DNA from: an uncultured Neomegalonema sp.
GTDB lineage: Bacteria > Pseudomonadota > Alphaproteobacteria > Rhodobacterales > Rhodobacteraceae
Reading direction: 5' to 3'
Assembly: GCA_937922185.1 (NCBI GenBank)
Contig: CAKZUT010000115.1
Coordinates: 1-61,083, forward strand
DNA: 61,083 nt
Of the stretch, positions 53,350 through 58,308 are shown piece after piece. Positions within the stretch are counted from its first letter, which is position 1. Each line of letters starts with the position of its first letter. The position numbers and the translations under genes are program-made. The notes beneath the pieces were generated by a model. It was not told where the DNA came from and did no database searches. It saw only the letters and a program-made list of their open reading frames with translations.

Positions 53350-54978
53350 TCACCCGTAAGCGAAGTCGATCATCGCCCGCATCGACATGCGCGGTCCGAA
53401 CTTCATGCCCGCCAGCGCAACCCCGTCACCGCCCGTCGGCACGTCGGGGTCGTAGTCGAGGCCCTTGCCGGTCGCATCGCGGTAATGGTCGAGCAGGCCC
53501 ATCAGCACCTCGCCCACGATCCGCCCGCCCACGGGGCCGAGCCGATCACCGCCCGCCGATTGCTTCTCGTGATCTTCCTGCAAGTCCTTGCTGGCGAAAC
53601 CTTTACCCCAGATCGCGGCTTCCATGAGGATATAGAGCCACAGAGGCGTCTCCGGCAAGGCGTACTCGCCCGAGAGCTTTTTCTGCAACGCCTTGATTTC
53701 GGTAGGTATTTCGGTCGTATCCGGCCCGATCATATCGCTGTCCGTCATGGGCTGATCATAGGCGATATGCGCCCCGTCCGCGATCATGCGGCGGGCGATG
53801 GATTCGCCCGAGGGCAGGCGGAAGATGCGCCCGCGCATCAGGTTCCGCGAGGCCAGCGATTGCTCTTTCCCGGCGAACTCCATGGGCAGGGCGAATAGCG
53901 GTTCAGGCAGGAACGGATCGATCCGGTGCGCGAACTGTGTCGCCGTATCATCCTGCGCGACGAAGAAATTGCCGAAATCCATGAGCTGTGCAGCCGGAAT
54001 GGCGTGAAAACCCCGCAGGGAGTCGTCGAACAGCTTCTTCTTCCTGCTGCCCGAATTGACGTCATAGGTATCGCGGACCGTCGAATGGCCGTAGCGATAG
54101 GCCGCGACCGAGAATTCCACCGGCATGAAGGGCCGCTCGGGCCAGCCTTTTTCGCCGTCGAAGCCGTTCGGAAAGTAATACTGCCGCCCCTGGGTCGAGA
54201 TCGCCTGAATCATGTCCAGCCCGATCACGCGATAGAGAAAATCCTCCAGAATGATGCGGTGGTAGTAATGCGTGGTGGTGTCACGCGCCTTCTCGAACAG
54301 TTCCTCGGCATCCTCCAGCCCTCTGGCGTGCAGGTAATCGACGCATTTGTTGTGAAACCGGATAAAGGCGCATTGTACCTGCGCCACGAAGATATTCTCG
54401 TCATTGCGGGGATCGCCGATGATCGCGCGCCCCGCGCTGTTGCGTTGCAGGTCGTTGCGGCCCGATCCGGTGCCGGGGCCGGTGAACAGATCGCCTTCGA
54501 TCAGTCTGGCGCTTTCCCATGCCTCACCGCCGGTATTGTAGAGATACGGGCTGGCCTCGCGACCGCCGCCATAAACGCAATCGAGGTCGAGATTGGGGGT
54601 GCGCGCATTCTCCAGCCGCGCGTTCATCTGCGGTGAGGAGAATTTCGACTGCACGTCCAGCGTGATGTCATGGTCGATGAACTGCCCGAGGAAGGTGATC
54701 CCGGCAGGGGCGAGCGAGTCGCGCTTGCCGGCCTTGGGGCCGTTCTTCGGCTCCAGTGGTCCGTCCTTCGCGCCGAGACGGCGTAATTCGTAGCGGGGCA
54801 CGGGGTTGGGTTGCAGCTTCTCGGTCCCGTCCTCGGCCCTGCCCTCACCGATGACGAACATGCGGCCAAAGCGACCGTCGGACTCCTCGTCCACCCGATC
54901 ACCGGAAAAATCATTGACCTCATACAGACCCGGATTCTTGCCCGGTGCGCCATGGGCGCCGAGTTGGCGATTGTTCAT
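53350..54978 (-). CDS. animal-type heme peroxidase family protein
   Basis: Distal His motif LGQFIDHDITLDV, proximal-type motif FSVAAYRYGHSTVRDTYDVN and FIRFHNKCVDYL; start set to MNNRQLG. Confidence 0.88.
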   Translation of the reverse strand: MNNRQLGAHGAPGKNPGLYEVNDFSGDRVDEESDGRFGRMFVIGEGRAEDGTEKLQPNPVPRYELRRLGAKDGPLEPKNGPKAGKRDSLAPAGITFLGQFIDHDITLDVQSKFSSPQMNARLENARTPNLDLDCVYGGGREASPYLYNTGGEAWESARLIEGDLFTGPGTGSGRNDLQRNSAGRAIIGDPRNDENIFVAQVQCAFIRFHNKCVDYLHARGLEDAEELFEKARDTTTHYYHRIILEDFLYRVIGLDMIQAISTQGRQYYFPNGFDGEKGWPERPFMPVEFSVAAYRYGHSTVRDTYDVNSGSRKKKLFDDSLRGFHAIPAAQLMDFGNFFVAQDDTATQFAHRIDPFLPEPLFALPMEFAGKEQSLASRNLMRGRIFRLPSGESIARRMIADGAHIAYDQPMTDSDMIGPDTTEIPTEIKALQKKLSGEYALPETPLWLYILMEAAIWGKGFASKDLQEDHEKQSAGGDRLGPVGGRIVGEVLMGLLDHYRDATGKGLDYDPDVPTGGDGVALAGMKFGPRMSMRAMIDFAYG

Positions 54979-55193
54979 GGTGTTTTCCCCTTCGGAAACT
55001 CGCAACACAGATGACTCATCGCGCCACGGACTCACGCATGGCGCATCCGACCGTTCTAAAAGGACTCACGATCAGGAAAGTGATCCATAACACGACAACG
55101 TGTACACTGAAAGATGAATGCGATCAGAAGGCGAGTCAGCCTGTCGGTTCTTCGCTCTTTTCCGCATGAAACCTGCCAGCCTTTGCTTGCCAA

Positions 55194-56417
55194 GTGCCCT
55201 CGTCCCGGCCATTCTCCCGCCACGGGCGAATTACGGGGCACAGGCGGTTGAACGATCCGACGAATGACACATTTCGACAGTTGTTGATGGAGGCCCGCAT
55301 CGATGATGCGGAGAAAGCCCGTGTTGCGATTGAGGAAATCGGCGAAAAGGTTGAGCGCGCTGAAACGCGCTGGACCGAGGACGAATTGCGCGAGACCGTA
55401 GCGCGTGTTCTCGCCGATGCTCTGCGCGAGGCCGGGCGCACGGATCGTGATGCCCTCATCCGCGCCATCGCCCCCAATGTCCTCGCCACTGTCCGGGGTG
55501 AGATTTCCAACGCCCATCCCGAAATCATCGAAGCACTGTCTCCGCGTATCGGTGAGCTGATCCGTACGGCAGTGAACAAGGCGGTCGAGGGCCTGCAACG
55601 CCAGATCGACGATGCGGTGCCGGTCGATCTGTGGATCGCGACGCTCAAATCCCGCCTCACCGGAACGTCCAGCGCAAGCTGGATCATTCACGAGGAAGAC
55701 GGCTTTCGGGTCATCGAAGCCTTTCTGATCGAGCGCGGTTCCGGCCTGATACTGGCGCAGGATCGCCCTGTCGGTTCCGAACTGGATGATTCCGCCACCC
55801 TCGACGATGATCTTCTGGGCGGCATGATCGCCGCCCTCGATGCCTTTGCCCGCGATGCTTTTGGCGGCGGCGGAATAGACGAGTTGCGTCAGCTCAACCT
55901 GTCTGCGGGGACGATCTATCTGCGCGCCAGTCCGATGAAGATTCTCGCCCTGCGCTGCACCGGAACTGCGCCGCCGAAGATCGAGGAAGAGATCGATCAT
56001 CTGCTCGATCAGGTGATCCGCCGTTTGCAGGAGGGGGGAGACGATGCGCTTCCCGCCCGCCTTCTCGCGGTTGATGTCGCGCCCGTCTCCGGGGATGACG
56101 GGGTGAGCGGTGCCGCGCTGATCGGCAAGGGCGTTGCCGCCGTTGCCGCGATTATGCTGACGATATGGGGTCATTTCGCGCTGGAAGGAGCAAACATTGA
56201 ACGCTGGACCGAATCCGCCTTCGATGTTGCGAACGGGCATCCGGCCATGACCGGGTATCCTGTGGAGGCGGCCTATGCGGACGGGGCCGTGACCGTGACC
56301 GGCCTCGTTCCTGACGAGGCGACACGGGCCGATATCGCGGACGCTCTGTTGCGCTGGCCGATGCCGGTGGCGACGACGCTGGCGATGCCCGTTGCCGGAA
56401 GGCGACTCGATCCATGA
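55194..56417 (+). CDS. TM-anchored protein: helical N-terminus, candidate roadblock/longin-like domain, TM, BON-like C-terminus
   Basis: FRVIEAFLIERGSGLILAQDRPVGS...LLGGMIAALDAFARDAF; TM AALIGKGVAAVAAIMLTIWGHF; BON-like DGAVTVTGLVPDEATRADIADALLRWPM. The start codon is uncertain. Confidence 0.65.
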   Translation: MPSSRPFSRHGRITGHRRLNDPTNDTFRQLLMEARIDDAEKARVAIEEIGEKVERAETRWTEDELRETVARVLADALREAGRTDRDALIRAIAPNVLATVRGEISNAHPEIIEALSPRIGELIRTAVNKAVEGLQRQIDDAVPVDLWIATLKSRLTGTSSASWIIHEEDGFRVIEAFLIERGSGLILAQDRPVGSELDDSATLDDDLLGGMIAALDAFARDAFGGGGIDELRQLNLSAGTIYLRASPMKILALRCTGTAPPKIEEEIDHLLDQVIRRLQEGGDDALPARLLAVDVAPVSGDDGVSGAALIGKGVAAVAAIMLTIWGHFALEGANIERWTESAFDVANGHPAMTGYPVEAAYADGAVTVTGLVPDEATRADIADALLRWPMPVATTLAMPVAGRRLDP

Positions 56418-56920
56418 AGACCTACAAGATTGTGGTCCTCGGCGATTTCGGCGTCGGCAAGACGTCGCTGATCCGCCGCTATGTCCTCGATGAATTCTCG
56501 GAAGCATACCGTGCGACCATCGGGGTTCACATCTACAAGCATCTCGATAGCCTTGAGGGAGACGATCTCGAAGTCAGCCTCGTCGTCTGGGATATTGAGG
56601 GCGCGCCTCTGCCCGGTGAGCAGACCCGCCGCTACATCGTCGGGGCATCGGGGGCGGTCATCGTCGGTGATCTGACCCGCGATGATCCCTTCCCGGCCAT
56701 GTGGCAGGCGGCGGATATGTTCGAGGAGGCTCTGCCGGGTCGCCCGCTGTGCCTCGCGCTCAACAAATCCGACATCGCATCCGTGAAAAGCCCTGAAACC
56801 GTAAAACGCATGGCACGTCGCTACGATTGCTCCGTGTTCGAGACCAGCGCGCGCACGGGTGATGCCGTGAATACGATGTTCCGCGCTCTGGCGCGCTCCA
56901 TTCTCTCGCTTGGATTGTAG
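56414..56920 (+). CDS. Rab/Ras-like small GTPase
   Basis: G1 GDFGVGKTS, G2-region ATIGVH, G3-like WDIEG, G4 NKSD, G5-like ETSART; ATGA overlap with the upstream gene. Confidence 0.9.
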   Translation: MKTYKIVVLGDFGVGKTSLIRRYVLDEFSEAYRATIGVHIYKHLDSLEGDDLEVSLVVWDIEGAPLPGEQTRRYIVGASGAVIVGDLTRDDPFPAMWQAADMFEEALPGRPLCLALNKSDIASVKSPETVKRMARRYDCSVFETSARTGDAVNTMFRALARSILSLGL

Positions 56921-56927
56921 GGCCGGT

Positions 56928-58022
56928 ATGGACCTGCAACCCGATCTTCTGACCGCGACCCTGGGCATTGTCGTGATCCGGCTCGACGATGACCTCACCG
57001 TGACGGAGGTGCATGGTGAGATTGACGATCTCGCGCCCGGCCATGACATCCGCGAGACGATGCCGGTTCTCTACGGGCTGGAGGAGGCGCTGGCCGGGCC
57101 GGATGTGGATATCGCCATGCCGCTGATCCAGACCGGGCGCAATAATGATGAGCCTGTATCGCTTCATATCCGGCGTGACCCGGAAACGGGCGGGCTATGG
57201 CTGTTCCGCCGCGATGTCTCCGAGGAAAGTGCCATTCATCGCCAGCTTGTGCAGAACCATAATTCGCTGTCTCTGGCTCAGGCCGAGCTGGTCAAGGCCC
57301 GCGATGCGGCCCGTGAGGCCGACCGTACCAAGACCGCTTTCCTCGCCAATGTCAGCCATGAGTTGCGGACGCCGCTGCACGTCATCATCGGGGGGGCGTC
57401 CATCCTGTCGAAGACGGGCGAGCGGCGTCCCGATCCGTCTGAAGTCGTCGAATATGCAACGGATATCCACGAAAGCGGCATTCTGCTGCTGCAACTTGTC
57501 GATGACCTGATAGATCTGTCGCGTTCCGAGACCGGCGACCTGACACTCTACGAGGAATCCTGCGATCTCTGCACTATCGTTGCCGGGATCGTATCGCTCT
57601 GCCGCGACCTGCCCGAGGCGCGCGGGACACGCATCGACAGTGACATTCCCGACGAGCGCGTGGGCCTGACGGGTGATGCGCGCCGCCTCAAGCAGGTGTT
57701 GCTCAACCTGATCTCCAACGCCCTCAAGGCGGTGAACGGTCTGGCCGAGGCAAAGGTCACCGTTACGGTCGATCCAGACGGCCCGCGCCTGATCGTTGCC
57801 GATAACGGTGCGGGGATGACGGCGGAAGACCTTGCGATCGCGCGTCAGCCTTTCGGACAGCCCCGCGCCGCCGTGCGCGCGAAGGGCGCGGGGCTGGGCC
57901 TCGCCATTGTCCACCGCCTCGTCGCCCTGCATGGTGGCGACCTGGTGATCGAGACCGCCCCGAACGAGGGCCTGACCGCTATCGTCACCTTCGATCCGGC
58001 CCGCGCGCGACCGGCCTCCTGA
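56928..58022 (+). CDS. cytoplasmic sensor histidine kinase
   Basis: H-box FLANVSHELRTPLHVII, N-box LLNLISNALKAV, G1 VADNGAGM, G2 GAGLGLAIVHRLVALHGG; no TM segment or receiver domain. Confidence 0.93.
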   Translation: MDLQPDLLTATLGIVVIRLDDDLTVTEVHGEIDDLAPGHDIRETMPVLYGLEEALAGPDVDIAMPLIQTGRNNDEPVSLHIRRDPETGGLWLFRRDVSEESAIHRQLVQNHNSLSLAQAELVKARDAAREADRTKTAFLANVSHELRTPLHVIIGGASILSKTGERRPDPSEVVEYATDIHESGILLLQLVDDLIDLSRSETGDLTLYEESCDLCTIVAGIVSLCRDLPEARGTRIDSDIPDERVGLTGDARRLKQVLLNLISNALKAVNGLAEAKVTVTVDPDGPRLIVADNGAGMTAEDLAIARQPFGQPRAAVRAKGAGLGLAIVHRLVALHGGDLVIETAPNEGLTAIVTFDPARARPAS

Positions 58023-58089
58023 GTCCGACGAACGGAACGAAACAGGAAGCCGTTTCCCGGAAGACTCATTTTCGCCCCTTGATGCGGTT

Positions 58090-58308
58090 TTGCTGTCACC
58101 GTTGCGTCTTGAAGCGCGCCACCCGGATGATTTTTTGCTGGATCAATATGGGCTGTCATCGGCTGAGTTCCTCAAAGCGGTCAGGAGGGACAAGGCCCAT
58201 TATCTCAACCCGCCGCTTGATACCGACAGTTACCTGTCCTCGCTCGGCAAAGCAGGGGTCCCGAAGACAGTTGACCGCCTTCGGGACGTTGCGATCCTGC
58301 TCGATTGA
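58090..58308 (+). pseudogene. C-terminal remnant resembling a PIN-domain (VapC-like) toxin
   Basis: LEARHPDDFLLDQYGLSSAEFLKAVRRDKAHYLNPPLDTDSYLSSLGKAGVPKTVDRLR resembles the tail of many PIN-domain proteins; no catalytic N-terminus is present. Confidence 0.55.
58258..58287. repeat. 9-bp inverted repeat
   Basis: GTCCCGAAG ... CTTCGGGAC with a 12-nt spacer inside the PIN-like remnant. Confidence 0.7.

Follow-up and report, generated by a model that had tools for sequence, protein, structure and literature searches.

A conserved Neomegalonema operon of a membrane protein, a Rab-like GTPase and a histidine kinase, best described as a variant Group 1 Rup system

The Group 1 Rup GTPases are similar to Rab and Ras, lack the Gln of the G3 motif and, in the 2014 survey that described them, whose Rup set holds 71 sequences, are placed closest to eukaryotic Rab/Ras (Wuichet and Sogaard-Andersen 2014, PMC4316618). 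Beside their genes lie one for a coiled-coil cytoplasmic protein and one for a protein in which an 'unknown domain' is joined to a transmembrane (TM) segment and, often, an OmpA domain; the output is a kinase or a c-di-GMP enzyme that carries an invariant Gln in its N-terminal region (PMC4316618). Of the 121 Rup genes in the survey, not one was scored as coupled to MglB, and no roadblock domain is named there; Rup GTPases were, as of 2014, experimentally uncharacterised (PMC4316618); our literature search found no later experimental Rup study.

Small GTPases are combined with roadblock-type proteins and two-component signalling in MglA/MglB, where the G3 Asp of MglA is described as replaced by Thr (PMC3000849), and in the actinobacterial conservon (CvnA-D), which encodes a kinase, a roadblock-type protein and a small GTPase in one operon. 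In the conservon, which has been studied experimentally, a kinase without a sensory domain of its own is stimulated by an accessory protein (PMC13343842).

Layout and conservation of the operon

The window analysed here, meaning the whole stretch of 61,083 nucleotides from an uncultured Neomegalonema sp. (contig CAKZUT010000115.1), has uncultured Neomegalonema MAGs as its closest records. In agreement with a preliminary description of this DNA, ORF coordinates place three co-directional genes on the + strand, coding for a membrane protein (P1), a GTPase and a histidine kinase, with an ATGA overlap of the first two ORFs at 56414-56417 and a 7-bp gap before the third (56921-56927). The features are as follows.

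55248..56417, + strand: P1, the membrane partner of the GTPase, conserved at every locus of the genus with full context; start taken from orthologues
55248..55604, + strand: N-terminal helical region of P1, predicted to be cytoplasmic; helices in a low-confidence model, conserved in the alignment
55605..56051, + strand: middle domain of P1, remotely roadblock/longin-like by hhalign against Robl_LC7 and by the top two PDB profile matches
56109..56165, + strand: core of the single predicted TM segment of P1; hydropathy 1.92 over 19 residues
56211..56393, + strand: BON-like C-terminal domain of P1, presumably periplasmic
56414..56920, + strand: Rab-like small GTPase of the Group 1 Rup type; Pfam Ras 5.6e-25, canonical G1, G4 and G5
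56591..56605, + strand: G3 motif DIEGA, with Ala in place of the catalytic Gln; Gln in 0 of 63 relatives
56928..58022, + strand: histidine kinase, HisKA-HATPase_c, with neither receiver nor TM segment (Pfam; hydropathy)
56928..57302, + strand: N-terminal domain of the kinase, common to other outputs in an alignment of 26 output proteins
57252-57254, + strand: kinase Gln109, in a column that is Gln in 23 of the 26 outputs
57357..57359, + strand: phospho-acceptor His144 (SHELRTPL), invariant in the alignment

P1 probably starts at TTG 55248 and not at GTG 55194, as in the earlier ORF, because its orthologues begin MSDPT... Its one strong hydrophobic segment (residues 306-324) bears out the single TM helix proposed before, and a BON-like C-terminus, likewise proposed, is supported by the predicted structure, in which this part is modelled at a pLDDT of ~90. 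Foldseek relates the C-terminal model to OsmY, DolP and BonA at a probability of 0.99-1.0 and E between 0.01 and 0.16, with no match at E <= 0.001, and the Pfam BON model does not match the sequence of the window's P1. The GTPase is a single domain of 168 aa with the motifs GDFGVGKT, NKSD and TSA, the solved structures closest to it are Rab32, Rab28 and Rab38, and Asp60 of its G3 motif is kept and invariant in the genus. In the kinase (HATPase_c 3.2e-23, HisKA 1.3e-17) Pfam finds no receiver and hydropathy no convincing TM segment, again as first described.

The order P1-GTPase-kinase is kept in seven related loci, and the GTPase is present in 13 of 14 Neomegalonema genomes. Among the other genomes of the same family that were listed it is absent; it occurs in 8 of the 386 sampled genomes of the class and in 52 of 399 of the phylum, a sample clumped by taxon, so that these counts do not represent independent events. 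In 57 of the 58 Pseudomonadota loci with readable upstream context, the gene immediately before the GTPase encodes a relative of P1, and conversely 44 of the 45 genomes that encode the P1 middle domain also encode the GTPase. These figures support a conserved unit in which P1 is the constant membrane partner of the GTPase. At the sole exception with readable context (L087:7619-9252), the GTPase is followed by an HD-GYP protein and no P1 relative lies upstream; the same genome holds another GTPase copy with P1 (L088).

The P1 proteins of other taxa frequently have a C-terminal OmpA domain (Pfam E down to 6e-12), preceded by BON in Nostoc, and a small coiled-coil gene often lies 5' of P1. In Neomegalonema there is no OmpA and P1 stops after the BON-like domain. 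In a second clade of the genus (L095, L096, L098 and L099), P1 carries an N-terminal coiled-coil extension of up to ~170 residues, which occupies the place of the separate coiled-coil gene in other taxa. One further operon (L021:225-5105) contains two P1 paralogues separated by a coiled-coil gene.

Upstream of P1, relatives in the genus have nadK and the window has a divergent gene on the - strand (53350-55035) for an animal-type haem peroxidase (PF03098, E=3.4e-22), an unusual neighbour for signalling genes. Downstream of the kinase, a short open stretch at 58080-58308 resembles, on visual inspection, the C-terminus of a PIN-domain protein; Pfam gave no match for such a remnant.

Comparison with described GTPase systems

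The Group 1 Rup description applies to single-domain Ras-superfamily GTPases with canonical G motifs and fewer than 240 aa, and the GTPase of the window is one of these. The two further share the Rab-like character without the G3 Gln, a neighbour made of a conserved domain and a TM segment, and an output with an N-terminal Gln (23/26), the sameness of this Gln being judged from the published description. The P1 of the window differs in ending with a BON-like domain in place of the OmpA that its relatives do have; since OmpA was reported as present 'often', P1 agrees with the domain and TM arrangement despite missing it. Judged by gene order and architecture, the P1 domain would correspond to the 'unknown domain' of 2014. 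The matching order in Mesorhizobium sp. WSM1497 reads hypothetical, OmpA family protein, Rab family GTPase and cyclase. Two differences remain: an NtrC-type regulator joins the unit in Neomegalonema relatives of the window, and the window has no separate coiled-coil gene nearby, which is why we file its operon as a variant.

We therefore regard the operon as a real, conserved signalling unit of the kind predicted in 2014 and not as a new kind; on the features compared, it appears to function as Group 1 Rup systems do and is most aptly named a variant of them. The preliminary description considered the coupling of such a GTPase to a kinase to be poorly described. In that form the statement finds no support: the window unit matches the Group 1 Rup description, for which the 2014 survey reports the coupling, and the conservon has been the subject of experiments.

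With MglA/MglB the operon shares a Ras-like GTPase, a roadblock or roadblock-like partner and a link to two-component proteins. Its GTPase, however, keeps Asp60 and thus lacks the MglA-type G3, no protein of the window genome passes the Robl_LC7 threshold, and P1 is a membrane protein; the retained Asp60 and the missing Robl_LC7 match rule out membership. The conservon is likewise similar in its gene content and, through the stimulation of a sensorless kinase, offers a useful parallel for the window's kinase without a TM segment. It differs in that the window, which comes from another phylum, has no CvnC-like fourth gene, a GTPase of the Rab/Rup type and a kinase that has neither a TM segment nor the C-terminal LPxR (it ends FDPARARPAS). 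The missing LPxR and fourth gene exclude it from the conservons.

The middle domain of P1

What deserves to be followed up is the fold of the middle domain in P1, a segment that the preliminary description had likened to partners of small GTPases. No Pfam family was found for P1 as a whole, and the middle domain retrieved nothing from Pfam, NCBIfam or the PDB when P1 itself or a profile of its close relatives was used; the signal came only from profiles built on distant P1 relatives. In hhalign, such a profile scored 24.0 over 77 columns against 26 Robl_LC7 domains (P=0.002), where the best of 150 column shuffles reached 15.1; a wider P1 profile scored 23.7, the best of 300 shuffles reaching 17.1, and unrelated families used as decoys reached at most 19.0. 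When a roadblock profile was compared in reverse with 18 protein families from these loci, P1 was best at 27.1 and the next family reached 16.8. An unbiased profile search of 177,635 PDB sequences returned an Asgard Roadblock/LC7 protein and TRAPP BET5, which has a longin-like fold, as its best two matches (E=0.12-0.30), and the registers of the two agree and are collinear.

These results leave some room for an unrelated fold, with P1 merely anchoring or scaffolding the GTPase and the kinase at the membrane, since neither the PDB nor the hhalign values are significant alone. Pfam, moreover, detects Robl_LC7 in just 1 of 31 P1 family members (E=0.042), amid chance matches of similar strength. 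The structure models do not settle the matter: AlphaFold, run on full-length P1 and on the middle domain alone with an alignment of 8 close relatives and used for the C-terminus only, gave the middle domain a pLDDT of 30-50, and the low-pLDDT beta-beta-alpha-beta-beta-alpha arrangement of the full-length model has an unreliable domain-only counterpart. On the other hand, shuffles and decoys all score lower, the register is collinear, and a search with no prior choice of target puts roadblock and TRAPP proteins in the top two places, so that we consider an unrelated fold a real possibility but well short of an even chance. Taken together, the individually sub-significant results make a roadblock/longin fold likely, and this remote but consistent evidence, which fits the likeness originally noticed, is what is new here. 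The broader proposition that nearly every Group 1 Rup GTPase has a membrane-embedded, divergent roadblock/longin domain as its partner seems to us somewhat better than an even bet.

Should that broader proposition hold, the pairing of a GTPase with a roadblock/longin partner would become a common rule for both prokaryotic families, and the exchangeable signalling enzymes would be readers of the GTPase switch. Should P1 prove to be roadblock/longin-like, the Rab-like branch of GTPases in bacteria would have an identified regulator, a result that would also bear on the origin of the roadblock and longin proteins by which eukaryotes regulate their small GTPases.

Outputs, the NtrC-type regulator and the direction of signalling

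Five kinds of enzyme are encoded after the GTPase, namely kinases, hybrid kinases, GGDEF-EAL proteins, class III cyclases and HD-GYP proteins, and several loci have no same-direction output gene at this place. By sequence alignment, the N-terminal domains of these five kinds are homologous, and the strongest indication that this domain reads the GTPase is that it stands in front of such different enzymes. In the 3 of 26 outputs that depart from the Gln109 column, the Gln is shifted one place further on, which speaks somewhat against a strictly catalytic role. As the N-terminal domain of the kinase matches a kinase structure only weakly (E=0.079), we claim no PAS assignment for it.

The kinase likely has a partner regulator. 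A receiver-AAA-Fis (NtrC-type) protein is encoded directly 3' of the kinase in 9 members of the genus; the earlier statement that there is no response-regulator neighbour thus holds for the window and fails for most of its relatives. The window genome and two near relatives keep the regulator elsewhere in the genome, the window genome on another contig (G000:C237:5654-7147, L111; 80% identical). That it was kept although separated from the kinase suggests a pair that still cooperates.

Our preferred reading, to which we assign a probability of about 0.7, is a Group 1 Rup-type operon in which P1 senses the envelope and sets the GTPase, and the kinase reads the GTPase and drives the NtrC-type regulator. 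P1 would sit in the inner membrane, with the BON-like domain in the periplasm, where it would sense the state of the envelope, and the helical and roadblock-like parts in the cytoplasm, where the latter would set the nucleotide state of the GTPase as a GAP, a GEF or a scaffold. The kinase would then read the GTP-bound GTPase through its N-terminal domain, whose conserved Gln may stand in, in trans, for the one missing from the GTPase, an idea that comes from the authors of the 2014 survey (PMC4316618); this would couple binding to GTP hydrolysis. The kinase would in turn phosphorylate the NtrC-type (sigma54) regulator, adjoining in relatives and on another contig here. With three compact genes and a kinase-regulator pair that can be named, Neomegalonema makes such a path from envelope to transcription testable.

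Signals could also run in reverse, as has been proposed for the conservon, with the kinase sensing through its N-terminal domain and the GTPase and P1 acting on the envelope. The window, where no regulator follows the kinase, would suit this direction, and the authors of the 2014 survey propose that the GTPase is the conservon output because the conservon has no response regulator (PMC4316618). Yet 9 relatives have a regulator directly after the kinase, and in the place after the GTPase other loci encode cyclases, GGDEF-EAL and HD-GYP proteins, all typical outputs, which makes reversed flow improbable. More radically, the kinase could merely happen to lie downstream of an unrelated GTPase gene pair. 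A neighbourhood survey had been proposed at the outset as a way to see whether the three genes are rarely adjacent; it found the trio kept across the genus, which argues against chance, and other families as well as Nostoc show the arrangement again, with N-terminal domains that are homologous. Nothing was found in favour of chance adjacency, which is refuted by the survey and can hardly be credited.

One output (L025:9151-10272) has Trp in place of the H-box His (RWGFRAPL), and Pfam finds no kinase domain in it; it resembles a degenerate kinase, so that signalling in this lineage may do without phosphotransfer. The gene 3' of the regulator in relatives encodes an AAA ATPase whose middle part is long and acidic (L090:11488-13779); it, too, is relocated in the window genome (G000:C54:530-2815). 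The relocated regulator itself adjoins genes for sugar-nucleotide enzymes, a methyltransferase and a flippase-like protein, neighbours that hint at control of surface polysaccharide.
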